A stretch of DNA of 64,000 bases from Planctomycetota bacterium (GTDB lineage: Bacteria > Planctomycetota > Phycisphaerae > Phycisphaerales > Phycisphaeraceae): positions 1-64,000 of the forward strand of contig JAIOPN010000024.1 in the NCBI GenBank assembly GCA_021413865.1, written 5' to 3'. The first letter of the stretch is position 1; every line of letters starts with the position of its first letter. The notes beneath the pieces are model-generated. The model was not told the origin of the DNA. It worked only from the letters and a program-made list of their open reading frames with translations, and made no database searches. Position numbers and translations under genes: made by a program. This document shows, in pieces, positions 32,809 through 47,883 of this stretch.

Positions 32809-35220
32809 TTATCGTCCGCTCCGCTCGGTCTCCAGCACCTTGAGCGTGGTGGCGAGGACGGCGTCGGGGTTGAGCGAGATGCTGTCGATGCCCTGCTCGA
32901 CGAGGAACCGCGCGAAGTCCGGGTAGTCGCTGGGCGCCTGGCCGCAGATGCCGATCTTGCGGCCGGTTTCTTTGGCGACCTGGATGACCTGGGCGATCAT
33001 GCGCATGACGGCGGGGTTGCGCTCGTCGAAGAGCGGCGCGACGACCTGGGAATCACGGTCAACGCCGAGGATGAGTTGGGTCAGGTCGTTGGAGCCGATC
33101 GAGAATCCGTCGAAGACCTCGGCGAACTCGCGGGCGCAGATGACGTTGCTGGGGATCTCGCACATGACGTAGAGCTCCAGGCCGTTTTCGCCGCGGGTCA
33201 GGCCGTTTTGAGCCATCTCGGCGACGACACGGCGGCCCTCCTCGACGGTGCGGCAGAAGGGCACCATGATCTTCAGGTTGGTCAAGCCCATGTCGTCGCG
33301 GACCTTCTTCATGGCGCGGCACTCGAGGGCGAACGCGTCGCGGTAGGCCGGGTGGTAATAGCGCGACGCACCGCGAAACCCGAGCATCGGGTTCTCCTCG
33401 ACGGGCTCGTAGGCCTTGCCGCCCAGAAGGTCGGCGTATTCGTTGGTCTTGAAGTCGCTCAGCCGGACAATGACATCTCTGGGATAGAACGCGGCGGCGA
33501 TCATCGCGACGCCCTGCGCGAGCTTGTCCACGAAGAAGCCGGGCTTGTCGTCATAGCCGGCGGTGAGGCGGTCGATCTCCGCCTTGACCGCGGGGTTCTT
33601 GAGCTGGTGATAATCGATCAGCGCCTTGGGATGGATGCGGATGTAGCCGGAGATGATGAACTCCTCGCGCGCCAGCCCCACGCCGTCGTTGGGCAGCATG
33701 GAGAGGCGGAACGCCTCCTCCGGGTTGCCGACGTTCATCATGATCTTTGTGCGTGGCCGGTCGATGCGGCCCAGGTCGATCTTTTTCGCGTCGAACGGCA
33801 GCAGCCCTTCGTACACCGAACCGACCTCGCCGCCGGCACAGCAGACGGTGACCTCCTGGCCGTCGCGGATGGATTCGGTGCCGTGCTCGGTGCCGACGAT
33901 GGCGGGCAGGCCCATCTCGCGGCTGATGATGGCGGCGTGGCAGGTCCGGCCGCCGCGATTGGTGACGATGCCGGCCGCCCGCTTCATCGTCGGCTCCCAG
34001 TCCGGATCGGTCTTGTCGGTGACCAGCACCTCGCCGTCGCGGAACTGGTTCAGGTCGGCGGCGCTCTTGATGACGTGCGCTTTGCCGCTCCCGATCTTGC
34101 CGCCGACGCTGCGCCCGGTGACCAGCACGCGTGACTTGCCCTTGAGCGTGTAGGTCTCGAGTTGATCGATCCGCTTCTGCGACTGCACCGTCTCGGGCCG
34201 CGCCTGGATGATAAAGACCTCGCCGGTCAGCCCGTCCTTGGCCCACTCGATGTCCATCGGCTGCGGGTGGCCGGCCTTGGCGCTGTAATGCTCCTCGATC
34301 AGGCAGGCCCATCGCGAGAGCTGCAACACCTCGTCATCGCTGGCGGCGAACCTGGCACGGTCTTCCGGGGGCACGGGGACGTTCCGCGTCATCTTCGTGG
34401 CGCCCACGTCGTAGATGAGCTTGAGCTCCTTGGTGCCCAGCACCTTGTGGAGGATCGGCCGGAAGCCCTGCTTGAGGGTGGGCTTGAAGACGTAGAACTC
34501 GTCGGGGTTGATGGAGCCCTGCACGATGTTCTCGCCCAGGCCGTAGGCGGCGTTGATGAGCACCACGTCGCGGAAACCGGTCTCGGTGTCGATCGTGAAC
34601 ATCACGCCCGAAGAAGCGAGGTCCGATCGGACCATGCGTTGCACGCCGATCGAGAGCGCCACCTGCGCGTCCTCAAACCCCTGGTCATGGCGGTACGAGA
34701 TCGCCCGGTCTGTGAAGAGCGAGGCGAAGCAGCGCCGGCAGACGTCTAGGAGCATCTCGTGGCCGCGCACGTGGAGGAACGTCTCCTGCTGGCCGGCGAA
34801 GCTGGCGCCGGGGAGGTCCTCGGTGGTGGCGCTGGAGCGCACGGCGACATCGGCCTGGCCGCCGGTCTCGCGGCCCAGACGGTCGTATTCCTTCACGATG
34901 ATACCCCGCAGGTCCGCCGGGATCGAAGCGGCGAGGACCATGTCGCGCACGCGCCGGCCGCGGCGCTGGAGGTCCTCGATGTTCTGCGTGTCCAGGCCGG
35001 CGAGCACGCGGGGGATCGCTTCATCCAGCCCCGACTCGCGCAAAAAATGGCGGTACGCGTCGGCGGTCAGCGCGAAACCATCAGGGACGCGCACGCCCTT
35101 GGATGTCAGCTCGCGGTACATCTCACCCAGCGAGGCGTTCTTGCCGCCGACGACGGGGACGTCGGCGATGCTGATCTCTTCGAACCGGCGGATGTACTGG
35201 GTTGCTTGCACCTGGGTCAT
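32809..35220 (-). CDS. ppsA: phosphoenolpyruvate synthase
   Basis: An 803-residue three-domain enzyme making PEP from pyruvate and ATP. The N-terminal ATP-grasp part has PVVGGKNASLGEMYREL and VAVRSSATTEDLPGASFAGQ; the swivelling phospho-His domain has GGRTCHAAIISREMG; the C-terminal PEP barrel has MLGFRGASRY and GSNDLTQLILGVDRDS. Full length for the family. It is third in the operon USP-Cys-rich protein-ppsA, so gluconeogenic PEP supply appears to be under the stress-island control box at 36209. Confidence 0.96.
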   Translation of the reverse strand: MTQVQATQYIRRFEEISIADVPVVGGKNASLGEMYRELTSKGVRVPDGFALTADAYRHFLRESGLDEAIPRVLAGLDTQNIEDLQRRGRRVRDMVLAASIPADLRGIIVKEYDRLGRETGGQADVAVRSSATTEDLPGASFAGQQETFLHVRGHEMLLDVCRRCFASLFTDRAISYRHDQGFEDAQVALSIGVQRMVRSDLASSGVMFTIDTETGFRDVVLINAAYGLGENIVQGSINPDEFYVFKPTLKQGFRPILHKVLGTKELKLIYDVGATKMTRNVPVPPEDRARFAASDDEVLQLSRWACLIEEHYSAKAGHPQPMDIEWAKDGLTGEVFIIQARPETVQSQKRIDQLETYTLKGKSRVLVTGRSVGGKIGSGKAHVIKSAADLNQFRDGEVLVTDKTDPDWEPTMKRAAGIVTNRGGRTCHAAIISREMGLPAIVGTEHGTESIRDGQEVTVCCAGGEVGSVYEGLLPFDAKKIDLGRIDRPRTKIMMNVGNPEEAFRLSMLPNDGVGLAREEFIISGYIRIHPKALIDYHQLKNPAVKAEIDRLTAGYDDKPGFFVDKLAQGVAMIAAAFYPRDVIVRLSDFKTNEYADLLGGKAYEPVEENPMLGFRGASRYYHPAYRDAFALECRAMKKVRDDMGLTNLKIMVPFCRTVEEGRRVVAEMAQNGLTRGENGLELYVMCEIPSNVICAREFAEVFDGFSIGSNDLTQLILGVDRDSQVVAPLFDERNPAVMRMIAQVIQVAKETGRKIGICGQAPSDYPDFARFLVEQGIDSISLNPDAVLATTLKVLETERSGR

Positions 35221-35621: not shown

Positions 35622-36113
35622 TCAACGGGCACGTGATCCCGCTTTGGCGTGGACTATGGCGGGGCTATTTTCTTCGGAGGAACGGCCCGGAACCACCACC
35701 ACCGGGCACAGGGCCTTGTGCAAGACGCCCTCGGCGGTGGAGCCTACGAGCATGCGATGCAGCGCCCCGTGGCCGTGCGAGCCGATGACGATCAGCCCCG
35801 CATCGATGCGTTTGCTCTCGTCAGTGATGGCCTTGATGCTGCTGGCCGAGCCCTCGATGAGGATGGTTGCCACGTCGAGTCCGTGCTCCAGCAACGGCTC
35901 GCGCAGCTCGTTGAGTTTGGCGCGGGCCTTGTGGGTCTTTTGCGCGGGCGTCTCCCCGGCGAACACCACGGTCTCGTAGCCGATGCCGTTCTCCACCACG
36001 ACCACGTTCAGGAGGTAGAGCTTCGTCCGCAGGGCGGTTGCCAGCGCGGCCGCCGTTTCAATCACGGCCGATGTGGTTTTCGAGAAATCGACACAGGCAA
36101 CAATGTTTTTCAT
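35622..36113 (-). CDS. universal stress protein (island copy 1)
   Basis: A 163-residue USP with the complete nucleotide motif GSHGHGALHRMLVGSTAEGVL. It opens MKNIVACVDFSKTTSAVIET and ends VVVVPGRSSEENSP. It is strikingly similar to the USP at 40125-40637, including the middle EGSASS(I/V)(K/R)AI region, so the two are recent duplicates. First gene of the operon usp-Cys-rich gene-ppsA. The conserved GTAAGTA...CCCCTACTG box lies about 100-120 bp upstream. Confidence 0.93.
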   Translation of the reverse strand: MKNIVACVDFSKTTSAVIETAAALATALRTKLYLLNVVVVENGIGYETVVFAGETPAQKTHKARAKLNELREPLLEHGLDVATILIEGSASSIKAITDESKRIDAGLIVIGSHGHGALHRMLVGSTAEGVLHKALCPVVVVPGRSSEENSPAIVHAKAGSRAR

Positions 36114-36208
36114 GATGTGTGCTCGTAAGAGGGGGTTCTCGGTCGCTAAGATCCTCCTTACCGACCGCAATAATAGACCCCATCGATGCTCGCGCGAATG
36201 CGGAAATG

Positions 36209-36231
36209 TCCGTAAGTACTTACCCCTACTG
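36209..36231 (-). promoter_or_regulatory. stress-island box a, upstream of usp-ppsA operon
   Basis: The plus strand reads GTAAGTACTTACCCCTACTG from 36212. It contains a perfect 12-bp palindrome GTAAGTACTTAC joined to the CCCCTAC core. Box c has the same arrangement upstream of the duplicate USP. Confidence 0.6.
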
Positions 36232-36718: not shown

Positions 36719-38464
36719 TCATCCGATCAACCGGATGACGAAGTTTCCATCGATCAGTAGGCTCGCCGGGTTGGGCAGCACGGCGGGGGTCAGGGATTTG
36801 AACTTTCGCTTGAGCGGATCGGCCGCGTCCGATCGTGCGTAGGACGGGATCGAATTGCCCGCGACGCCGAAGGGCGCGGGGACGCCGGCGACATCGACGG
36901 CCCTGAGCGTGATCTTTTTGATCGTCCACGCTGCGATGCTCGAGCCGGTGAATGCGGGCAGCAGCGAGCCCTTGATACCGGCGATCGTCATCGACTTGAT
37001 CGAGGCGTGGGAGGCGAAGTCGTCGGCGGAGTCGGGCAGCGTGGGGCCATTGATGTCGGCGTAGAGGCTGCTGACCGCCATCGCGCCGATCGACACGGTG
37101 CCGATGGAACTGCGGCTGTTAATAGTGGTGTGGTCCGCCGTTCCTCGAATGGTCAGTTTGTCCACGCCCGTGGCCGGGACGTCGGGCGATGGCGCCGCCT
37201 GGGTGAATAGGATGGTGCTCGTGGTGATGTCGTGAGTAACGGTCATGGTGCCCACGGAGAGCGCGGTGATAGCGGCATCAACCGCGCTGCCGAGCGTGAG
37301 GGTGTTGATCCGGCCGGCGGAGTTGAGGGTCCACTCCTCCGCCGCGCCGCCGACCTGGATGGTGGTGACGCGGCCGGCGTTGATGTTCCACGTCGCCTCG
37401 TTGAGGTCACCGGTGATCTTGGCTGAGCCGAGCGAGACCGCGGCCGGGTTGCCGCCGGTGATCGTCAGGCCTGCCTCGAAGTCGCCGGTGGATTTCAGCG
37501 ACGCGATCGCAGGCGCCGTAATCACGTCGGGTGTTGCGTCGGTATCGAGCCAGTTCGCGACCGTCAGCGACTTGATGGGCATCTGCGTGGTGAGCGATGC
37601 CTCGGCGACGTCGTTGAGCTTGATCGTCGTGGCGACGAGAGAGCTCGACGCGGGCCCGATCGAGAGCGTATGCCCGTCCGCCACGTCGTGGAGCGTGAGC
37701 GAGCCCAGCGCACCGACGACCGTCATGTTTCCCTTCAGGTCCACCTTGGGCGCGTCGATCGTCTTGAGTGAACCGTCCGCCGCGACGTTCTGCACGGGGA
37801 CGATGGCGTTGTGCAGCGTGCGAACCGTCAACACCGACGCGGGGTTGCTGTTGGTGATGACGACATCGGCCAGGTCTCCGTTAGGAACAAGGGTGCCGGT
37901 GGCGCCGCCAGTCAATGAGAGCGTAACCGACGTGTCAGCGACATCGTCGAAGATCACGAGTTTCACATTGTTGCGATTGCCCACTTTCCCGAAGACCGCG
38001 GGCAGGGTGACGATCGGTCCGGGAGTGACCGCGATGTTGTTGGAGGGGTCGTCACCCGTGATCGTGCCCGAGGGTACCACCGTGGTGATCAGGCGATAGA
38101 TGCCGGGGTTCATCGTCGTGGGGATGGTCAGCTTGATTCCCAGGTCGTGGACGGTCTCACCGGCGTTGAGCGAGCCCCCGGAGTGGATGCTGCCCAAGAG
38201 GATGTCGTCGCCTTTTTCCAGCGTGCCGTTGAGGGAGGCATACACCTGGAGCGTGCCACTGGCGACGAGTTTGTCCGGCCCGTTGTTGGTAATGGCGACG
38301 ACCGCCTGGAGCTTGTCGCGCTGGAGATATTCGCCGGCGGTTGGGATCTGAACCCACGAGATGGCTAGGTCGGCGTTGAGAAGAACCCGCGGCTCCAAGG
38401 CCTCAAAGAATGGTGTGGGTAACGGCAAAGAGATTCTGGTCTTGTGGGCGAGTGATTGTGACAT
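36719..38464 (-). CDS. LEPR-XLL surface protein with CARDB-like domain
   Basis: A 581-residue protein. FFEALEPRVLLNADL near the N-terminus is the planctomycete LEPR-XLL sorting/export signature. Next is a CARDB-like domain (NADLAISWVQIPTAGEYLQ, VAITNNGPDKLV, GETVHDLGIKL, DPSNNIAVTPG), then about 350 residues of repetitive, Thr/Ala/Gly-rich beta strands (IGTVSIGAMAVSSL, IASLKSTGDFEAG). It is probably exported to the cell surface or periplasm. The ATG at 38464 is 7 bp from GGAGG; the ATG at 38470 is too close to it. Box b lies about 100 bp upstream. Confidence 0.85.
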   Translation of the reverse strand: MSQSLAHKTRISLPLPTPFFEALEPRVLLNADLAISWVQIPTAGEYLQRDKLQAVVAITNNGPDKLVASGTLQVYASLNGTLEKGDDILLGSIHSGGSLNAGETVHDLGIKLTIPTTMNPGIYRLITTVVPSGTITGDDPSNNIAVTPGPIVTLPAVFGKVGNRNNVKLVIFDDVADTSVTLSLTGGATGTLVPNGDLADVVITNSNPASVLTVRTLHNAIVPVQNVAADGSLKTIDAPKVDLKGNMTVVGALGSLTLHDVADGHTLSIGPASSSLVATTIKLNDVAEASLTTQMPIKSLTVANWLDTDATPDVITAPAIASLKSTGDFEAGLTITGGNPAAVSLGSAKITGDLNEATWNINAGRVTTIQVGGAAEEWTLNSAGRINTLTLGSAVDAAITALSVGTMTVTHDITTSTILFTQAAPSPDVPATGVDKLTIRGTADHTTINSRSSIGTVSIGAMAVSSLYADINGPTLPDSADDFASHASIKSMTIAGIKGSLLPAFTGSSIAAWTIKKITLRAVDVAGVPAPFGVAGNSIPSYARSDAADPLKRKFKSLTPAVLPNPASLLIDGNFVIRLIG

Positions 38465-38565
38465 GTACATGCCTCCATGGATGATTCAAAGACAGCTTTG
38501 CGGCCGTCGCCTCTCAACACAGGAATTAATTTACGGAGAAATAAGAGGCGTCGATATTGACATTT

Positions 38566-38591
38566 ACCCGTAGGGACTTCTCCCTATGGGT
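38566..38591 (-). promoter_or_regulatory. stress-island box b, upstream of the LEPR-XLL gene
   Basis: ACCCGTAGGGA at 38566-38576 and TCCCTATGGGT at 38581-38591 are inverted copies with one mismatch and a 4-base spacer, the clearest dyad form of the island motif. Confidence 0.6.
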
Positions 38592-38692: not shown

Positions 38693-39379
38693 TCACGTCG
38701 ATTCGCGGTCATGAACGCCGAGATAGTGGGTGAACCAATCACGTGCCAGGTCCGCGACCCTCTCCAATGTGCCGGGCTCCTCAAACAAATGCGTCGCCCC
38801 GGGAACAACCTCGAGACCGGCGCGACACTTCATGTGGGCCTTGGCACGCAGGTTGAGATCAAGCACCGCCTGGTCATCGCCCCCCACGATCAGTAGAACA
38901 GGGGCGGTCACCAGCGGCAGCGCGGCGCCGGCAAGGTCCGCCCGGCCCCCCCGTGACACAACCGCGCTGATCCGATCACGCTTCCGAGCGGCCGCAACCA
39001 GTGCAGCGGCGGCGCCTGTGCTCGCGCCAAAAAGGCCGATCTTCATCCGCGACGTTGCCGGTTCCGAGCCGAGCCAGTCAACAGCCAGACAGACGCGTTC
39101 AGCCAGCAGGTCGATATCGAATCGCAGCACTGCGGTCCGCTCATCCTCGCGCTCCTCGGCTGACGTGAGCAGGTCCATCAGAAGCGTCGCCAGGCCGGCC
39201 CTCTGGAGCACGCCGGCGACATATTTGTTGCGCGGGCTGTGCCGGCTGCTGCCGCTCCCGTGGGCGAAGAGCACGATGCCGCTGGCACCCGTCGGGATCG
39301 TCAACTCGCCACGCGCAGAGGCGTGGTCCACGTCGATCACGACAGGCATCGGCTTCAGGTTGATTGGTGAAGACGACAT
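38693..39379 (-). CDS. alpha/beta hydrolase of dienelactone-hydrolase type
   Basis: A 228-residue alpha/beta hydrolase. The nucleophile elbow is FGASTGAAAAL, the acid is expected near LLIVGGDDQAV and the catalytic His in VPGATHLFEEPG. An oxyanion segment VLFAHGSGSSRHS precedes. Substrate unknown. Hydrolases of this kind are often encoded next to, or fused with, a phosphoribosyltransferase, as seen here. GAGAGGAG precedes the ATG. Third gene of the operon usp-PRTase-hydrolase. Confidence 0.82.
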   Translation of the reverse strand: MSSSPINLKPMPVVIDVDHASARGELTIPTGASGIVLFAHGSGSSRHSPRNKYVAGVLQRAGLATLLMDLLTSAEEREDERTAVLRFDIDLLAERVCLAVDWLGSEPATSRMKIGLFGASTGAAAALVAAARKRDRISAVVSRGGRADLAGAALPLVTAPVLLIVGGDDQAVLDLNLRAKAHMKCRAGLEVVPGATHLFEEPGTLERVADLARDWFTHYLGVHDREST

Positions 39380-39403: not shown

Positions 39404-40102
39404 TCACGACGCGGAGGGTTCCGCTAAAGCCGACTGACTGCGGCGCTTGGCCAGCCGAGCAAGCGCTTGGCGCACTTCTTCATCACTGGTCTGCTCAAAA
39501 GATTCGTACCACCGGCCGACCCCGCCGAAGTATTCAGGGGCGAGCACACAGACACACTCGTCGGCCACCCTGCCGAAGTGGTCGCAGGCCTGGGGCGATG
39601 CCACGGGGGCGGCAACCACAATCCGCGCCGGACCGCGGAGGCGAAGGGCGTCAACCGCGGCCTGCATGGTCGCGCCCGTCGCCAGGCCATCGTCGATCAG
39701 GATGACTATGCGATCCCGAACCTGCGGCGCGGGTTGGTCATCGCGATAGAGACGCTCGCGCCGTGTCAGTTCCTGCTGCTCGCTCGCTTGTACCGCCCTG
39801 ATCGATTCTTGCGTGATGCCCAGCGCTTCCACGACATCCTCGTTAAGCACCAGCGTGCCCCCGCTTGCGATGGCCCCCATCGCAAGCTCGCTTTGCCCCG
39901 GCACACCGAGCTTGCGGACCACGAAGACGTCCATGGGGAGGTCCAGCGCGGCGGCTACCTCGTAAGCCACTGGCACGCCCCCGCGCGGCAAGGCCAGCAC
40001 CAAGACGTCTGGCCTCTTGGCGTAACGGGTGAGCTTGCGCGCCAGAGCACGCCCGGCCTCGGCACGATCCTTGAATCCACGCGGTATTCGCCTGTCGTTC
40101 AT
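39404..40102 (-). CDS. phosphoribosyltransferase-domain protein
   Basis: A 232-residue type I PRTase-fold protein. The PRPP loop is IVILIDDGLATGATMQAAVDAL, and the N-terminal DVLVLALPRGGVPVAYEVAAAL with VFVVRKLGVPGQSELAMGAI is typical of the orphan group that pairs with dienelactone-hydrolase-like proteins. The base substrate is unknown. It lies 22 bp after the USP gene and 24 bp before the hydrolase gene on the same strand. Confidence 0.88.
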   Translation of the reverse strand: MNDRRIPRGFKDRAEAGRALARKLTRYAKRPDVLVLALPRGGVPVAYEVAAALDLPMDVFVVRKLGVPGQSELAMGAIASGGTLVLNEDVVEALGITQESIRAVQASEQQELTRRERLYRDDQPAPQVRDRIVILIDDGLATGATMQAAVDALRLRGPARIVVAAPVASPQACDHFGRVADECVCVLAPEYFGGVGRWYESFEQTSDEEVRQALARLAKRRSQSALAEPSAS

Positions 40103-40124
40103 GGCTGGCCTGCCCCCGCAGTTC

Positions 40125-40637
40125 TCATCTGTTGCGCATTGTGGCAAGAGCGCGGGTGCCCGCCTCGATACGGCGCAGGCTGCCGCCGCACCCTTCATCG
40201 AACGAACGGCCAGGTACGAGCACCACCGAGCACGCCGTCTGGTGCAAGACGCCCCGCGCCGTGCTACCCACGAAAATGCGGTGCAGCAAGCCGTGGCCTT
40301 GCGAGCCGATCACGATCAGCCCCGCGTCGATGCGCTTGCTCTCATCGACAATTGCCCTGACGCTGCTGGCCGAGCCCTCAATGAGGATGGTTGCCACGTC
40401 GAGCCCGTGCTCCAGCAACGGCTCTCGCAGTTCGTTGAGTTTGGTGCGGGCCTTATGGGTCTTTTGGGCGTGCGTCTCCCCGGTGAACACCATGCTTTCG
40501 TAGCCGATGCCGTTCTCGATGACGACGGCGGTAAGCAGGTAGAGCTTGGTCCGCAAGGTGGTAGCCAGCGCGGCCGCCGTTTCCACTACGGCCGAGGTGG
40601 TTTTCGAGAAATCAACGCAGGCGATGATGTTTTTCAT
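40125..40637 (-). CDS. universal stress protein (island copy 2)
   Basis: A 170-residue USP beginning MKNIIACVDFSKTTSAVVET, with GSQGHGLLHRIFVGSTARGVL as nucleotide motif. It matches the copy at 35622-36113 along nearly the whole length and shares its upstream box, so a gene and its control region were duplicated. The C-terminus (RSFDEGCGGSLRRIEAGTRA) differs. First gene of the operon usp-PRTase-hydrolase. Confidence 0.93.
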   Translation of the reverse strand: MKNIIACVDFSKTTSAVVETAAALATTLRTKLYLLTAVVIENGIGYESMVFTGETHAQKTHKARTKLNELREPLLEHGLDVATILIEGSASSVRAIVDESKRIDAGLIVIGSQGHGLLHRIFVGSTARGVLHQTACSVVLVPGRSFDEGCGGSLRRIEAGTRALATMRNR

Positions 40638-40729
40638 GACACGGACCCCGTGGATTCTTCCGTTCGTCCAAACCGGTCGATGATCGGAGCGTAAACGCAA
40701 TGCCTCCACGTCTGAATCCGGATTTGTCT

Positions 40730-40750
40730 GTAAGTAATTACCCCTACTGG
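40730..40750 (-). promoter_or_regulatory. stress-island box c, upstream of usp-PRTase-hydrolase
   Basis: The plus strand reads GTAAGTAATTACCCCTACTG, one base different from box a, about 95-115 bp before the USP start. Confidence 0.6.
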
Positions 40751-40794
40751 TCCTGGCGGAGGCAACGATGAACACCGGGCGGCATCAGTAAAAC

Positions 40795-40806
40795 TCCCTA
40801 CGGGGA
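40795..40806 (+). promoter_or_regulatory. stress-island box d, upstream of the 94-aa gene and third USP
   Basis: TCCCTACGGGGA, a near-palindrome with the CCCTACGGG core, lies 123 bp before the ATG at 40930, in the divergent region shared with box c. Confidence 0.55.
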
Positions 40807-40929: not shown

Positions 40930-41214
40930 ATGCATACGTTGCTTATGACTGATGGGACGACTCGCGAGGCCGCTGGTTTCAGCCCAGACACCACGGCAGG
41001 CGACGCTCAGTGCCGCCCGGCCGTCGTGAAGCGAGCCAGAAAACGGTTGCTCACGGGCTTCTATGACCGTGATGACGTCGTGGAGTGCGTGCTCAACCGC
41101 ATGTGGGATGCGCTGACCGAGAGCAGCAAGCCCCCGCGGGGGGGCCGCAAGCAACGGTTCGACAACGGTAACGCGACATCCTGTCCGGGGGCAAGGGCAG
41201 GAGGACTCCACTGA
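40930..41214 (+). CDS. 94-residue hypothetical protein coupled to a USP gene
   Basis: No family is recognised. The protein is basic and mostly helical in the middle (VVKRARKRLLTGFYDRDDVV, ECVLNRMWDALTES) with a Gly/Arg-rich tail. The ATG follows GGAAAGGAG with 6-bp spacing. Its TGA stop overlaps the presumed CTG start of the next USP gene, so the two are translationally coupled. It belongs to the stress island by position and by box d. Confidence 0.65.
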   Translation: MHTLLMTDGTTREAAGFSPDTTAGDAQCRPAVVKRARKRLLTGFYDRDDVVECVLNRMWDALTESSKPPRGGRKQRFDNGNATSCPGARAGGLH

Positions 41215-41657
41215 AAACCGTTATTGCCTGCATCGACTTCTCCCCGGTGACGGAGGATGTGATCCGGATTGCCCGGGGTCTGGCTGGGCCTGGCCGGGGC
41301 GAGGTCTTCCTGCTCCATGTTGTGTCGTTCGTCCCCATGATCGGCGGATTTGATGGCTACAACCCCATGACGGCACAAGTCGCAGGCGAGCGCCTGCTGG
41401 CGGCGCGGACGCAACTCGACGCACTCTGTGAACAGCACAAAGAGATGGGCGTCGCAATGACCGCGCTAATCTACGAGGGCCTGCCTGTCGAGCACATCCT
41501 GGCCGAGGCGGACAAGCGAAAGGCGGACCTGATCGTCATCGGCTCGCACGGCCTGGGGGTGCTGCAACGCGTGTTCGTTGGCAGCACAACGCTGGCCGTG
41601 CTCAAGCGGGCGACCTGCCCCGTCGTGGTTGTGCCCAGCGCCAATCGTTCCGGCTGA
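41211..41657 (+). CDS. universal stress protein (island copy 3), CTG start
   Basis: A 148-residue USP: KTVIACIDFSPVTEDVIRIA at the start, nucleotide motif GSHGLGVLQRVFVGSTTLAVL, and the end CPVVVVPSANRSG. The full first beta strand is only obtained if translation begins at the CTG at 41211, which lies 5 bp after AGGAGGA and overlaps the preceding TGA as CTGA. The next start, GTG at 41247, would remove the first strand. Its 3' end meets the convergent groEL gene. Confidence 0.85.
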   Translation: MKTVIACIDFSPVTEDVIRIARGLAGPGRGEVFLLHVVSFVPMIGGFDGYNPMTAQVAGERLLAARTQLDALCEQHKEMGVAMTALIYEGLPVEHILAEADKRKADLIVIGSHGLGVLQRVFVGSTTLAVLKRATCPVVVVPSANRSG

Positions 41658-41658
41658 G

Positions 41659-43284
41659 CTATTCACCCGGCATGCCCCCCGCACGGGCGGCGGCGCGCCT
41701 GGGCTCGGGCGTCTCGGTCAGGGTTGCTTCGGTTAGCAGCAGCACGCTCGCCACCGAGACGGCGTTCTCCAACGCAATGCGCACGACCTTGGTGGGATCG
41801 ACAATGCCCGCGGTCATCAAGTCCACATACTGGCTGCGCGCGGCGTCGAAGCCGTAGTTCCCCGTGGCCTCGCGCATGGCGGCGACGATCACGCCGCCGT
41901 CGGCCGCCGAGTTCTCGGCGATCTGCCGCGTGGGGGCTTCCAGCGCTCGCTTCAGGATACGCAGGCCGGTCCGCTCGTCGCCGTCGCAGTGGGCCTCCTC
42001 GGCCTCCACGGCTTTGATCGCACGCAGCAGCGCCCAGCCCCCGCCGGGCAGAATGCCCTCGGCCATCGCGGCCTTGGTGGCGCTGATCGCGTCCTCGAAC
42101 GCCTCCTTGTGGCTCTTCATCTCCGACTCCGAGGGCGCCCCGACGCGGACCACCGCCACGCCCCCGCTGAGCTTGGCAAGCCGTTCCTGTAGCTTCTCCT
42201 TGTCGTAATCGGAGGTGGTCTGTTCGATCTGCCGGCGGAGGTCGTGGCAGCGTCCCTGGATGGCGGCCTTATCGCCCGCGCCGCCGATGATGGTGGTGTT
42301 CTCGCGATCGATGACCACCCGCCGCGCCCTGCCCAGGGATTCGAGCTTGACGTCCTCGATCTTGGCGCCCAGTTCCTCGGCGAAGAATTGCCCACCGGTG
42401 AGCAGGGCGATGTCCTCCATGACGGCCTTGCGACGGTCGCCGTAGCCCGGCGCCTTCACCGCCGCGCAGGAGAGCACGCCGCGGATCTTGTTGACCACCA
42501 GCCCCGCCAGGGCGTCGCCGTCCACATCTTCCGCGACGATCAGCAGCGGCCGACGTGTCTGGGCGCTCTGCTCCAGCAGCGGGAGGATGTCCTTGAGCGT
42601 GCTGACCTTCTTCTCGACCAGCAGGATGGCCGGGTCTTCGAGGATGATCTTCATCGCCTCGGCATCGTTGATGAAGTAAGGCGAGAGGTAGCCGCGGTCG
42701 AACTGCATGCCCTCCACGACTTCGAGCGACGTTTGCGTGCCCTTGGCCTCCTCGACCGACACGACACCCTCGCGCCCCACCTTTTCGACGGCGTCCGCGA
42801 CCATCTCGCCAATCACCGGGTCGTTGTGCGCCGAGATGCTGGCGACCTGCGCCTTTTCCTTGCGGGTCTCGACCGGGCGGGAGAGCTTGCGGATCGCCTC
42901 GACGGCGACCTTGAGGCCGCGCTCCAGCCCGCGTTTCAGGTCGATCGCGCTCGCCCCGGCCGCGACGTTGCGCAGGCCCTCGGCGAAAATGGCGTGCGCC
43001 AGGATCGTCGACGTGCTCGTCCCGTCGCCGACCGACTCGCCGGTCCGCTCGGCGGCCTCGCGGATCATCCGTGCGCCGAGGTTTTCCTCCGGGTCCTTGA
43101 GTTCAAACTCCTTGGCGATGGTCACGCCGTCGTTGCAGACGATCGGCGCGCCCCATTTCTTCTCGATCAACACGCACTTGGACTTGGGCCCCAGCGTGAC
43201 GCGCACCGCGTCCGCCAGCGCACTGGCCCCACGCAGGATCTTCTCACGTGCCGCCGCGTTGAAGAAGACTCGTTTGCTCGACAT
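41659..43284 (-). CDS. groEL: GroEL-type chaperonin, orphan paralogue
   Basis: A 541-residue group I chaperonin subunit. ATP-site elements are [29 protein letters not shown] and [13 protein letters not shown] with the catalytic Asp; apical and intermediate domains are complete, and [20 protein letters not shown] closes the equatorial domain. No groES is adjacent. The C-terminus lacks the GGM repeat tail and ends RAGGMPGE. The GDGTSTST variant and missing groES suggest a specialised stress copy. Box e lies 85 bp upstream; the ATG follows AAAGGGGAAACC, as in hsp20. Confidence 0.95.
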
Positions 43285-43368
43285 GGTTTCCCCTTTCGAG
43301 GTGGTGACGGGTGTTACCGTTCGTCCGAACCCAGTTTCAGGCTTGGCACGACCCCGCACATCGGGAGA

Positions 43369-43381
43369 TTCCCCTACGGAA
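43369..43381 (-). promoter_or_regulatory. stress-island box e, upstream of groEL
   Basis: TTCCCCTACGGAA on the plus strand; reverse complement TTCCGTAGGGGAA. It lies 85 bp before the groEL ATG. Confidence 0.6.
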
Positions 43382-43605: not shown

Positions 43606-43645
43606 GCATGAAACGCCGCCGGGTTCGCGCTTTTTGCATAGGCAA

Positions 43646-43657
43646 AATCCCCTACGG
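43646..43657 (-). promoter_or_regulatory. stress-island box f, upstream of the candidate sRNA
   Basis: AATCCCCTACGG, the exact inverted copy of CCGTAGGGGATT in box g. No protein gene starts directly downstream on the minus strand, but a structured, terminated segment does. Confidence 0.55.
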
Positions 43658-43778
43658 CCCGGTTCGATTCCGGCCCCGCTAACTCGCTGCACGATCACAC
43701 ACACGCAAGACATCGATCCACGATTGGGCACGGCCCCGTGCACGCCGCCGCCGTCGTTTCGACGCTCGGCCCGCACGC

Positions 43779-43803
43779 CCGTAGGGGATTCTTCCTACAA
43801 GGA
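43779..43803 (+). promoter_or_regulatory. stress-island box g, upstream of the YbaK-type gene
   Basis: CCGTAGGGGATT followed by a looser TTCCTACAAGGA half, about 90-115 bp before the ATG at 43893. Confidence 0.6.
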
Positions 43804-43892: not shown

Positions 43893-44360
43893 ATGTGCCT
43901 CATCGGAAACCGTCTCGGACCTTTTCTTGATCAACGCGGCGTCGCTTACGAAGTGATTGACCACGCCCCCGACTACAGCGCCCAGCAGACCGCTGCGGAC
44001 ACCGGCACGCCGGGCCATAGTTTTGCCAAGAGCGTGCTCCTGGTGATCGATGGCCGGCTGACCCTCGCCGTCGTCCCCGCGGACCGCATTGTCGACATGG
44101 CCAAGGTCGCCAACACCTTCGGTGCAGGCGAGGTGACGCTGGCGGAGGAGGAAGCGCTGGAGGAACTCTGCCCGGACTGCGAGATCGGCGCGGAGCCGCC
44201 GTTCGGCCATCTGTACGGCGTGCCCATGGTGGTGGACGCTGAACTCTGCCGCGACCGCCGGATCACCTTCAACGCAGGCAATCACGAGCAGGCCGTCCGC
44301 ATGGACACCATCGATTTCCTCAAGCTCGCCCACCCGAGGGTGATGGATTTAGCGGCCTGA
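43893..44360 (+). CDS. YbaK/ProX-type aminoacyl-tRNA deacylase
   Basis: A 155-residue YbaK-domain protein, the fold that hydrolyses mischarged aminoacyl-tRNAs such as Ala- or Cys-tRNA(Pro). The conserved Lys is in GHSFAKSVLLVIDG, and the GAEPPFGHLYGVPMVVD loop is typical. It could also deacylate other substrates. GAAAGGAGG precedes the ATG with 6-bp spacing. It is monocistronic inside the stress island with box g upstream, suggesting quality control of translation under stress. Confidence 0.88.
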   Translation: MCLIGNRLGPFLDQRGVAYEVIDHAPDYSAQQTAADTGTPGHSFAKSVLLVIDGRLTLAVVPADRIVDMAKVANTFGAGEVTLAEEEALEELCPDCEIGAEPPFGHLYGVPMVVDAELCRDRRITFNAGNHEQAVRMDTIDFLKLAHPRVMDLAA

Positions 44361-44584: not shown

Positions 44585-45778
44585 ATGGAGCTAGCCACCC
44601 TCAAGAAGGCTCCTTCCATGGCCAAGACAACCCGCGACGCAGCCAAGAGGCGCAAGCCCCCGCGTAAGACCGTACCCGCTCCGTCGAAAGGTGCGGCCAC
44701 CGCTGTTCTGGCACCTGATGTCTCAACCATCAAGGAAAGCCGGGAGGAACTGGCCAGCATCATCGCATCCGCAATGGACGCGATCGTCACGGTCGATGCG
44801 GCGCAGCGGGTCACGCTCTTCAACGCTGGTGCCGAGAGAATGTTTGCCTGCCCGGCCAAGGAGGCGATCGGCCAACTCCTGAACAGGTTCATCCCCGAGC
44901 GGTTCCGCGCCGCCCACAGCCGGTACATCGAGAAGTTCGCCGCCACGAAAGCATCCGCCCGGAGCATGAGCACTCAACGGCCGCTGGCGGCGCTGCGCGC
45001 CGACGGGAGCGAGTTCCCGATCGAGGCCTCCATCTCGCAGGTGGAGGTCGAGGGGAAGAAGCACTTCACGGCGATCATCCGCGATATTACGGCGCGGTTG
45101 GTGACCGAAACGGCGTTGCGCGAGGCCGAGGCACGCTTCCGCTCGGTCTTCGAGAACGCCGGCATCGGGATCATGATGATCGACGGGAACAGCGCGATCC
45201 TCGAAGCCAACGCCGCGTGCGAGAAAATGCTGGGCTATTCCAACGCCGAGCTGCGCGGGACTCCCTACATCAAGATCACGCACCCGCAGGACGTGGAAAT
45301 GACGCTGGAACACACGCGCAGCATCACCAACGGCGGCGGCGGCGTGATCGAGTACGAGAAACGCTACGTCCGCAAGGACGGCGAACAGGCCTGGGCGCGG
45401 GTCCTCTTCACCATGTCCGATGGCTCCGCGGACAAGCCGCACCACTTCATCAAGCTGATCGAAGACATCACCCAGCGCAAGCACGCCGAGGCCAAGGCTC
45501 AGCGTGTGCGGGCGCGGAACGAGGCCGTCCTCCACAAATACGCCCGCCTGACCGACCGCGAGCGCGAGGTGCTCTGGCTGGTGGTGAACGGGAGGATGAC
45601 CAAGAACATCGCGACCGATCTGGGCACCAGCCCCAAGACCATCGACGTGCACCGCGCCCGCCTGATGGAAAAGATGGAGGCGGATTCGGTCGCCCAGCTC
45701 GTGCAGATGATTATGCCGGTGCGCAAAAGCCTGGCGATCAGGGGCGGGGCTGCAAAGACGCCCACCGACGCGGATTGA
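44585..45778 (+). CDS. PAS-PAS-LuxR one-component regulator, FixL/FixJ-like
   Basis: A 397-residue protein: basic N-terminus, PAS1 (about 55-170), PAS2 (about 180-298), and a C-terminal LuxR/FixJ-type HTH (about 318-380; LTDREREVLWLVVNGRMTKN, SPKTIDVHRARLMEKM). There is no kinase or receiver domain. PAS1 aligns with the FixL heme-PAS: His111 in RAAHSRYIEKF matches the proximal heme ligand and Arg132, eight residues before the DG of RADGSEFP, matches the distal Arg. It may therefore sense O2, CO or NO directly. A TACAAT element lies 8 bp upstream of this ATG; an alternative ATG at 44618 has AGAAGG before it. Confidence 0.85.
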   Translation: MELATLKKAPSMAKTTRDAAKRRKPPRKTVPAPSKGAATAVLAPDVSTIKESREELASIIASAMDAIVTVDAAQRVTLFNAGAERMFACPAKEAIGQLLNRFIPERFRAAHSRYIEKFAATKASARSMSTQRPLAALRADGSEFPIEASISQVEVEGKKHFTAIIRDITARLVTETALREAEARFRSVFENAGIGIMMIDGNSAILEANAACEKMLGYSNAELRGTPYIKITHPQDVEMTLEHTRSITNGGGGVIEYEKRYVRKDGEQAWARVLFTMSDGSADKPHHFIKLIEDITQRKHAEAKAQRVRARNEAVLHKYARLTDREREVLWLVVNGRMTKNIATDLGTSPKTIDVHRARLMEKMEADSVAQLVQMIMPVRKSLAIRGGAAKTPTDAD

Positions 45779-45853: not shown

Positions 45854-46603
45854 CTATCCCACGCGCGAACTCCGTCCGCCCCAAGCCGGACGAATCGCCG
45901 GGGCTCCATCCACGGCCAATCTGGGCATCCTCCAGAAAACCAGGACCAGATAAAACGCCATGACCGCGGCGAAATAACACCACACAGACTCAAACGCGTA
46001 GGAGAAAAAGATGTGGCTCACCACGGCCGAGAGAAGCACGGCGAAGCCGAAATCCGCCAACCGCCTCTCGGAGGAAGCCAGCAGCGGAGTCGATACCAGG
46101 AGGATGTAGAGCACCTGCCATATCCAGGGGAAGGCGTCGTGGAGCCAGGGGACGCCCGGAACGTGTCCGAGGGCCGGCGATTGTTCGATGGTGTAGTGGA
46201 TGGAATGATCGATGAGCGTGACATCGAAGAAGCCAGGGTGCGTCAGGAACGGCGCGTAAAGCACCAGCCCGCCGAGCAGCCCGAGCCATGTGGCGCACCA
46301 CATGAACCGGCGCGCCCTCGGCCGGCGCTCGGTGAGCGCCGCGCTCAGCGGGATCCAGACCGGCCAGAACAGTAGCGCAAAGAACAAATAGGCCAGTGCG
46401 AACGGCTTGACCAGGCCGGGTTCGGCACGCCCCAACGCCAGCCAGACGCACCCCTCAAAGAACTGCTGGACGCCGAAGCCTATTGGTACCACCGCCAGAG
46501 GCACGAACGACCTGTTGCCGCGTGCCGACCGCTGGAGGCAATAACCGCCGGTGACCAGGAGCAGCCCCGAGAGGCCGAAACTGGCCGTGGCTGAAAAACA
46601 CAT
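45854..46603 (-). CDS. DUF6629-type multi-pass membrane protein
   Basis: A 249-residue membrane protein beginning MCFSATASFGLSGLLLVTGG, the characteristic opening of the DUF6629 family. About seven hydrophobic helices are visible, with FEGCVWLALG after the second. The function of the family is unknown. It lies on the opposite strand to the PAS regulator and converges with it. No island box was found in its upstream region. Confidence 0.75.
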   Translation of the reverse strand: MCFSATASFGLSGLLLVTGGYCLQRSARGNRSFVPLAVVPIGFGVQQFFEGCVWLALGRAEPGLVKPFALAYLFFALLFWPVWIPLSAALTERRPRARRFMWCATWLGLLGGLVLYAPFLTHPGFFDVTLIDHSIHYTIEQSPALGHVPGVPWLHDAFPWIWQVLYILLVSTPLLASSERRLADFGFAVLLSAVVSHIFFSYAFESVWCYFAAVMAFYLVLVFWRMPRLAVDGAPAIRPAWGGRSSRVG

Positions 46604-46912: not shown

Positions 46913-47347
46913 CTACTTGACCGCGATGCGGTGCGGCTTGACCGCCTCGGTCTTGGGCAGCCGCAGCTTCAGGACGCCCTCTTCGAGCTTCGCGTCGATC
47001 TTGGACTCGTCGATGCTCGTGGGCAGCGTGAAGCTCCGGGCCACCTTCAGGTACCGCCGCTCGGTCAGGTGTTCCTGCCCCTTGCGTTCCTGGGCCTTGC
47101 GTTCGCCGGTGATCGAGAGGATCCCGCCCTCGAGCGTGACACTGATCTCCTCCCGCTTGAAGCCGGGCATCTCCGCCTCGACCAGGATGTTGTTGTCGTC
47201 CTCGGTGATGTCCACCGGGTACCCCGTCGCCCAGTCGCCCCCGTTGCCCTCAAAGGCGCGGCCGACGGCGCGGTTGAACTCACGGTCCAGCAGGTCGAGC
47301 GGATTCTCCCAGGCACTCCGGTTGTTTCTTCGCAGGATCGGCAGCAT
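46913..47347 (-). CDS. Hsp20/alpha-crystallin small heat-shock protein
   Basis: A 144-residue holdase chaperone. The alpha-crystallin domain runs from about residue 43 (YPVDITEDDNNILVEAEMPG) through EEISVTLEGGILSITGERK and FTLPTSIDESKIDAKLEEGV to LRLPKTEA, with the C-terminal anchoring I-x-I/V-like HRIAVK. The start at 47347 follows AAAGGGGAAGTC, nearly the same leader as groEL. An upstream in-frame ATG at 47401 is not favoured. Box h lies about 100 bp upstream. Confidence 0.95.
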   Translation of the reverse strand: MLPILRRNNRSAWENPLDLLDREFNRAVGRAFEGNGGDWATGYPVDITEDDNNILVEAEMPGFKREEISVTLEGGILSITGERKAQERKGQEHLTERRYLKVARSFTLPTSIDESKIDAKLEEGVLKLRLPKTEAVKPHRIAVK

Positions 47348-47445: not shown

Positions 47446-47490
47446 TTGCCCGTAGGGAACGCTCCCATCAGAACAAATACCTACGGGCAA
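47446..47490. promoter_or_regulatory. stress-island boxes h and i, divergent hsp20 / CBM48 region
   Basis: TTGCCCGTAGG at 47446-47456 and CCTACGGGCAA at 47480-47490 are perfect 11-bp inverted copies. Box h continues as GTAGGGA. One copy faces hsp20 and the other the CBM48 gene, each about 95-100 bp from the start codon. Confidence 0.65.
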
Positions 47491-47583: not shown

Positions 47584-47883
47584 ATGACGGCAGTAGCAAC
47601 ATCTCTCGAACCAGCGGCGGCAGGCTGGCCGTTCCCACGCCTCTGGGTGGTCAAGATGGACGATACCGGCGACGAAGAGGTCTTCATCGCCGGCGATTTC
47701 AACCGCTGGCAACTGCCGGGGGTACCCATGCAGCGGAGCGAGTCTGGCACTTGGGAGGCCCGCGTCCCGCTGAGCAGCGCGGACCTGCGCCGTTTCGCCT
47801 GCTTCGTGCTCAGCGGCTGCGGCTTCCGCGCCGTTACCCGTACGCGCATCGAGTGCTCACCGGATCAATCAATTTCATATTGA
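47584..47883 (+). CDS. stand-alone CBM48 (glycogen-binding-like) small protein
   Basis: A 99-residue protein that is little more than a CBM48/AMPK-type glycogen-recognition fold: EEVFIAGDFNRWQLPGVPMQ followed by SGTWEARVPLSSADLRRFAC. The paired Trp residues and the FNRW motif fit carbohydrate contact. No catalytic domain is attached. It might tether stress proteins to glycogen. AAAGGAG precedes the ATG. DUF2934 follows after 12 bp; the two form an operon under box i. Confidence 0.75.
   Translation: MTAVATSLEPAAAGWPFPRLWVVKMDDTGDEEVFIAGDFNRWQLPGVPMQRSESGTWEARVPLSSADLRRFACFVLSGCGFRAVTRTRIECSPDQSISY

Follow-up and report, generated by a model that had tools for sequence, protein, structure and literature searches.

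A candidate one-component, heme-type PAS regulator of a DosR-like stress island with FixJ-like boxes in a planctomycete

A PAS-PAS-HTH gene within a stress-gene island

The window, a stretch of 64,000 nucleotides at the start of contig C18 in a 4.37-Mb Planctomycetota genome, carries on its plus strand an open frame that encodes known Pfam domains (44585–45778). The product would be 397 amino acids long, or 386 amino acids from the ATG at 44618 (M12), which is the likelier start because AAGAAGG precedes it and the start of the orthologue resembles it. Pfam placed a PAS domain at residues 54–168 (PAS1; E = 3e-25), a PAS_9 match at residues 195–297, within a second PAS domain (PAS2) of approximately residues 183–297, and a GerE helix–turn–helix (HTH) at residues 321–375 (62.9 bits, cut-off 23.5). 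A first-pass annotation, made from the letters alone, had read the gene as a single chain that joins a PAS domain to a FixJ-like HTH. Consistent with this reading, the best PDB match of the HTH was the C-terminal domain of FixJ (1x3u, E = 4.1e-12), followed by a response regulatory protein (1yio, StyR) and then by full-length FixJ. The same annotation held that the protein has neither kinase nor receiver, and we found no model of either kind among the 14 Pfam families listed at E ≤ 1; the histidine kinase and receiver of a FixL/FixJ two-component system thus have no Pfam match in this protein. Its layout is that of the PimM-type PAS-LuxR regulators (N-terminal PAS, C-terminal LuxR HTH and no receiver), here with two PAS domains.

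Against NCBIfam, the whole protein was matched best by a general sensory-box model and, over PAS2, by a diguanylate cyclase model. PAS1 was matched by the FixL model (E = 1.9e-26; 92.7 bits, cut-off 850) and the C-terminal part by the FixJ model (E = 1.4e-20; 73.7 bits, cut-off 255), both matches falling far short of the full-length cut-offs, which fits a fusion protein. An AlphaFold2 model, for which 36 sequences were aligned (the regulator plus 35 of the 41 candidate segments found at 80 loci), has a mean pLDDT of 87.6 and a pTM of 0.69. It comprises two PAS domains and long helices, then a four-helix HTH, with helical linkers at residues 169–191 and 296–320; the N-terminal stretch of about 40 residues is basic and was modelled poorly.

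The regulator gene lies between the genes for a YbaK-type aminoacyl-tRNA editing protein (43893–44360, plus strand) and a DUF6629 protein (45854–46603), the latter convergent with it, probably encoding a membrane protein and lacking a box of its own. Three universal stress protein (USP) genes lie in the surrounding island, at 35622–36113 and 40125–40637 on the minus strand and at 41211–41657 on the plus strand, the last apparently with a CTG start. Also on the minus strand are genes for a 583-amino-acid protein with a LEPR-XLL motif (36719–38470), a DLH/alpha-beta hydrolase (38693–39379), a phosphoribosyltransferase (39404–40198), GroEL/Cpn60 (41659–43284) and Hsp20 (46913–47347); judging from their spacing, the hydrolase and phosphoribosyltransferase genes probably belong to the operon of the second USP gene. 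A small CBM48-like protein, with a weak Pfam match, is encoded on the plus strand (47584–47883), and a PEP synthase gene without a box (32809–35220) lies at the island edge. The 583-amino-acid protein, whose gene is led by a box, is possibly a surface protein that shares its control with the chaperones.

An 18-bp palindrome upstream of the island genes

The shared element of the island is an 18-bp imperfect palindrome, GTAGGG-N6-CCCTAC, of which nine sites occur within 12 kb. These boxes lie 76–238 bp upstream of genes, mostly 75–130 bp before start codons. On the minus strand, GTAGGGGTAAGTACTTAC (36212–36229) is 99 bp upstream of the start of the first USP gene (36113); a box that reads GTAGGGACTTCTCCCTAT on the plus strand (38570–38587) is 100 bp before the gene of the 583-amino-acid protein; GTAGGGGTAATTACTTAC (40730–40747) is 93 bp before the USP–phosphoribosyltransferase–hydrolase genes; and GTAGGGGAATCTCCCGAT (43360–43377) is 76 bp before groEL. 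On the plus strand, a weaker box (40784–40801) is approximately 130 bp before a small open reading frame at 40930, which precedes a USP gene, and ATAGGCAAAATCCCCTAC (43638–43655) and GTAGGGGATTCTTCCTAC (43781–43798) are 238 bp and 95 bp before the YbaK gene. The divergent Hsp20/CBM48 promoter holds two overlapping boxes, one (47452–47469) 105 bp before the Hsp20 gene and the other at 47467–47484. The box-to-start distances would favour activation by whatever binds there.

A tRNA T-arm-like sequence, GGTTCGATTCC (43650–43690), follows the box at 43638; it may be what is left of a tRNA gene, or the scar of an insertion. ARAGORN found no tRNA gene in the window, and the one Rfam match between 35 and 48.5 kb was below threshold and unrelated to any box.

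The first-pass annotation had described a box containing GTAAGTA that the island genes carry. The box island is real; its element is the 18-bp palindrome, of which GTAAGTA is only a part, found inside two of the nine boxes. The heptamer occurs four times in the window, once outside the island (60160). With up to two mismatches, the palindrome occurs seven times in the window, always at 36–48 kb, against 1.03 sites expected, and none of 100 shuffles reached seven. With up to one mismatch it has only two places in the entire genome, both in the island; at three mismatches the pattern is unspecific (994 genome matches versus 2048 for the reversed control). A weight matrix added the two weaker boxes at 40784 and 47467, and in leave-one-out scoring no position elsewhere in the window, of 50,975 outside the island, beat any of the seven sites. 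A model from all nine sites, run over the whole genome at E ≤ 10, gave ten matches, all in the 12-kb island: they are the nine sites, one of them counted on both strands.

Because this model was trained on island sites its fit is partly circular, and we therefore used the published FixJ site as an outside standard. The FixJ site of Sinorhizobium meliloti is TAAGTAATTTCCCTTA, and fixK promoters are described as having an 18-bp palindrome (PMC4999443); FixJ is reported to bind GTACGTAG in the promoter of a fixK gene (PMC13327599). Within three mismatches, the S. meliloti site occurs at three places in 4.37 Mb, as against one for the reversed control. The best two matches in the genome are the boxes at 40730 (GTAAGTAATTACCCCTAC on the plus strand; 14 of 16 positions) and 36212 (13 of 16), a closer likeness than the half-site resemblance to FixJ/NarL regulators that the annotation had noted; the other seven boxes agree at 7 to 11 of the 16 positions. 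Both FixJ-like boxes stand in a duplicated USP promoter and so amount to approximately one observation: 35670–36231 and 40194–40749 are paralogous USP genes with their promoters, 84% and 86% alike, and the duplication carried the box. Neither PMC13327599 nor four further papers (PMC5234846, PMC3367932, PMC11841059 and PMC3029386) contributed anything decisive.

Candidate readers of the boxes and the evidence from relatives

The genome encodes three GerE HTHs at E ≤ 0.001. On contig C45 (L053, 4890–7686), a FixL/FixJ-like set comprises a membrane PAS histidine kinase whose gene adjoins that of a FixJ-like response regulator; the set also has a further receiver-only protein. It is possible that this pair reads the boxes and that the PAS-PAS-HTH protein modulates or competes at the same sites, given that the HTH of the C45 regulator is at least as FixJ-like as that of the window regulator (32 versus 29 identities to FixJ in 59 positions, and 9 versus 10 in the 16 around the recognition helix) and that its gene adjoins a PAS histidine kinase. 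What ties the boxes to the window regulator is thus its position, together with the orthologue, and not HTH similarity. We nevertheless regard reading by the C45 pair as unlikely. The box model has no match outside the island at E ≤ 10, hence none near C45, whereas the window regulator gene is inside the island and its orthologue lies beside a box-like site; the receiver and HTH of the C45 regulator are in different frames in the assembly; and HTH-only matches are common in relatives, yet a search of 101 genomes (relatives, own genome included) under stricter filters found a box cluster in no other genome.

The only orthologue found, in a genome of another genus of the same family (G017), is 51% identical to the window regulator. 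With the own genome counted each time, orthologues were present in two of 400 genomes from the order and in one of 392 from the phylum. Among 80 loci kept of 297 relatives, the PAS-PAS-FixJ-HTH layout recurred only at L055, which is the same orthologue (G017:C222); contigs of relatives were scanned with two short peptide patterns, so its apparent rarity elsewhere applies to these patterns only. A box-like site, GTAAGGGTTTTCACCTAC, lies just downstream of the orthologue, 121 bp before a PNPOx–PNPOx–USP gene row. It is the best site of a 13.7-kb stretch (13.64, versus 10.23 for the best non-island position in the window) and agrees with the FixJ site at 11 of 16 positions. The support that it lends is moderate, since the nine-site model has no match at E ≤ 10 over all of G017 and five places with one mismatch to the box are all on other contigs. 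With two mismatches, the G017 total of 117 is below that of the reversed control (329).

Under stricter filters, fifteen of the 101 genomes, the own genome among them, have box matches at E ≤ 1, and more than two matches occur only in the own genome. Thirteen of the 15 foreign matches are within open frames of at least 120 codons, although such frames are not necessarily genes where the DNA is GC-rich. The remaining two comprise one after a tRNA T-arm-like sequence (L181) and one in an intergenic region near a formate transporter gene (L178).

A single intergenic box-like site in one relative (G018) scores 17.54 by weight matrix and lies between formate transporter and oxidoreductase genes; with an E value of 0.32 in its own genome, it may be a chance match. 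The stress/anaerobic cluster around it (G018:C688; L191, 463–8955) contains genes for Hsp20, the formate transporter, before which the site lies, and the oxidoreductase. It also encodes a multi-PAS HisKA_3 kinase, the last PAS of which is FixL-like, and two receiver proteins, one with a GerE HTH. Perhaps the circuit exists here in two-component form, or the arrangement may be chance.

The PAS-PAS-HTH gene might alternatively be a bystander in a stress island with an unrelated regulator, the boxes serving as promoter elements or as sites of another factor. The promoter of the regulator gene itself lacks a convincing box, its best site scoring 7.34 by weight matrix, under the background maximum of 9.6, and we do not claim autoregulation through the box; the similar G018 site, upstream of a formate transporter gene, is near PAS kinase and receiver proteins and not near a PAS-HTH protein. 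A bystander nonetheless seems quite improbable, as a FixJ-type operator and a FixJ-type HTH occur within the same 12 kb, the G017 orthologue adjoins a box-like site and the G018 site may be chance. We consider it likely, given its position and the orthologue, that the window regulator binds the boxes and controls the island. The protein had been proposed as the best candidate controller of the regulon, and that standing gains from the location of its gene inside the island and from the orthologue beside a box-like site; it gains nothing over the equally FixJ-like HTH from C45 by HTH likeness.

In Burkholderiales, relatives of PAS1 form part of sensor kinases that have LuxR-type regulators as neighbours. 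On a Paraburkholderia graminis plasmid (L162, 7467–19063), a PAS1-type kinase and a response regulator are encoded amid USPs, Fnr and zinc alcohol dehydrogenases. A PAS1-like match occurs in 31 plasmid records, and we searched three of these for the box (N6 form, two mismatches), L162 being the only annotated one. The three loci had 0, 0 and 1 sites and the reversed control 1, 0 and 0, so that a Burkholderiales box was rejected on these three loci; at L162 there was no excess (one site, control 0). Rejected likewise was the box as a planctomycete-wide element: a 20-bp form with one mismatch occurs in 111 of 392 genomes of the phylum, and its reversed control is widespread too. A USP match at E ≤ 1e-8 lies near ten of the 80 PAS1-like loci, a raw count on which we base no claim.

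PAS1, heme and the proposed circuit

H111 of PAS1 lies in the motif RAAHSRYIEKF, and residue 132 is an arginine. HMMER aligned them with the proximal histidine (H200) and the distal arginine (R220) of Bradyrhizobium japonicum FixL. Fourteen PDB sequences matched PAS1 at E < 1e-5, all of them heme PAS proteins (FixL, DosP and FG214), and the fifteenth, after a wide gap, had an E value of 0.32. In a structure search, 11 of the 50 matches listed were confined to PAS1 and all were heme PAS domains of FixL, DosP or FG214, the top PAS1 match among those listed being 10jx (FG214; Z = 16.9); the list was filled by PAS structures and bears on the PAS domains, not on the HTH. Likeness to heme PAS domains is not exclusive to PAS1, because PAS2 also matches DosP in sequence, weakly (E = 3e-6), and two FixL structures align best to PAS2.

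Conservation was counted over 95 PAS1-like segments, with that of the own genome left out; they come from 79 of the 80 loci. Residue 111 is a histidine in 89 of the 95 (77 of 79 taking the best segment per locus), residue 126 an arginine in 85 (73 of 79) and residue 128 a methionine in 71 (61 of 79); residue 132 is an arginine in 22 (13 of 79) and a glycine in 41. All four residues, H111, R126, M128 and R132, are kept in the G017 orthologue. The first-pass annotation had held that PAS1 keeps both FixL landmarks and had named loss of H111 in orthologues as a finding that would refute its reading. H111 is conserved, and both residues are present and align with FixL; R132 is no landmark of the family. 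M128 is the better-conserved candidate for the distal side, to judge from these sequences. The heme of FG214 is ligated by His156 with His175 or Met172 (PMC13060918) and that of RcoM by a His/Met pair (PMC9670170), which makes M128 a candidate sixth ligand; its correspondence to the known methionine ligands, which comes from counting residues, is tentative.

A FixL-like His/Arg pair is also present in the PAS domains of some histidine kinases, so H111 and R132 alone are no proof of heme. The regulator might instead read the boxes with a PAS1 that lacks heme, responding through another ligand or through PAS–PAS contacts, as PimM-type proteins may. The variability of R132 and the presence of an H111-type histidine across a wide PAS subfamily would fit such a protein, as would the fact that the word heme is absent from the main text of a review of PAS-LuxR regulators (PMC9774167), and that heme proteins are the nearest relatives with solved structures may be a matter of what was crystallised. 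We judge this rather unlikely, given that heme PAS proteins are the neighbours of PAS1 in both sequence and fold, the next sequence match being far weaker, and that H111, R126 and M128 are each kept in most relatives. Heme in PAS1 is plausible on these grounds, at slightly better than even chances.

We propose that the regulator is a one-component transcription factor in which PAS1, of the FixL/DosP type, probably carries heme on H111 and would sense O2 or redox state (or CO or NO). The signal would pass via PAS2 and the helical linkers to a FixJ-type HTH, presumably dimeric, and the HTH dimer would bind the 18-bp GTA-N12-TAC boxes. The bound dimer would probably activate a local survival regulon of the DosR/OsdR kind (USPs, Hsp20, GroEL, the phosphoribosyltransferase and YbaK). 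Activation is a good deal more probable than repression. We put at about even the chance that this is a one-component, probably heme-based O2 or redox regulator of its own DosR-like island, acting through FixJ-type operators. That the regulator controls the island and also has heme in PAS1, with a gas or redox signal, stands at even chances or slightly under. The fullest form of the proposal, a FixL-type heme sensor wired through a second PAS to a FixJ-type HTH that, without phosphorelay, reads a FixJ-type operator and runs a self-contained, DosR-like dormancy island, is somewhat less likely than not.

The proposed circuit has parts in common with several known systems. With rhizobial FixL/FixJ it shares a PAS1 nearest to the FixL heme PAS, an HTH nearest to FixJ and an 18-bp imperfect palindrome that comes close to the S. 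meliloti fixK site in the two USP boxes. Unlike FixL/FixJ, however, the window regulator is a single chain without kinase, receiver or phosphotransfer, its putative targets are stress proteins and not fixK or nifA, and it occurs in Planctomycetota. FG214 of Fimbriimonas, the best structural match of PAS1 among those listed, is likewise a one-component protein with a heme-type PAS and an HTH, but it has the order HTH-PAS with one PAS, whereas the window protein is PAS-PAS-HTH, has an HTH of the FixJ type and comes with a candidate regulon. The FG214 paper states that a heme PAS had never before been reported in a one-component context, a priority statement that disagrees with RcoM. RcoM also combines a heme PAS and a DNA-binding domain in one chain (PMC9670170), but it uses LytTR and senses CO, whereas the window protein has a LuxR/FixJ-type HTH. 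One-component heme-PAS regulators are thus already known (RcoM and FG214).

The PAS-LuxR/PimM family (PMC9774167) shares the PAS with a C-terminal LuxR HTH, and a palindromic operator with GGGA/TCCC halves. The PimM operator, CTVGGGAWWTCCCBAG, is GGG-N4-CCC, as against GGG-N6-CCC in the island, so the boxes do not fit the PimM operator; the family controls the biosynthesis of polyenes and other antibiotics. The DosR/DevR and OsdR regulons (PMC5069765) resemble the island in content, with USPs, heat shock proteins and pyruvate dikinase. DosR and OsdR, however, are two-component response regulators with a receiver, which the window protein lacks, and recognize a 16-bp operator, AGGGCCGATCGGCCCT. 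Several predicted OsdR sites lie at approximately −80 to −102 before genes for USP, nitroreductase and pyruvate phosphate dikinase, and the listed OsdR sites range overall from +13 to −391 (PMC5069765). Our literature search, which covered largely papers open without subscription, brought up no fusion between a heme PAS of the FixL type and a FixJ-type HTH, nor the combination of a FixL-type PAS, a second PAS, a FixJ-type HTH and a local set of FixJ-like operators.

If the proposal is correct, the route from FixL to FixJ would be reduced to one protein, and a heme-PAS one-component regulator would have a predicted native regulon, whereas the native targets of FG214 are described as not established (PMC13060918). 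Direct signalling from a heme PAS to an HTH would become testable with nine ready operator sites. The island would also suggest how a planctomycete could run a hypoxia or dormancy programme of a kind otherwise best known from actinobacteria.
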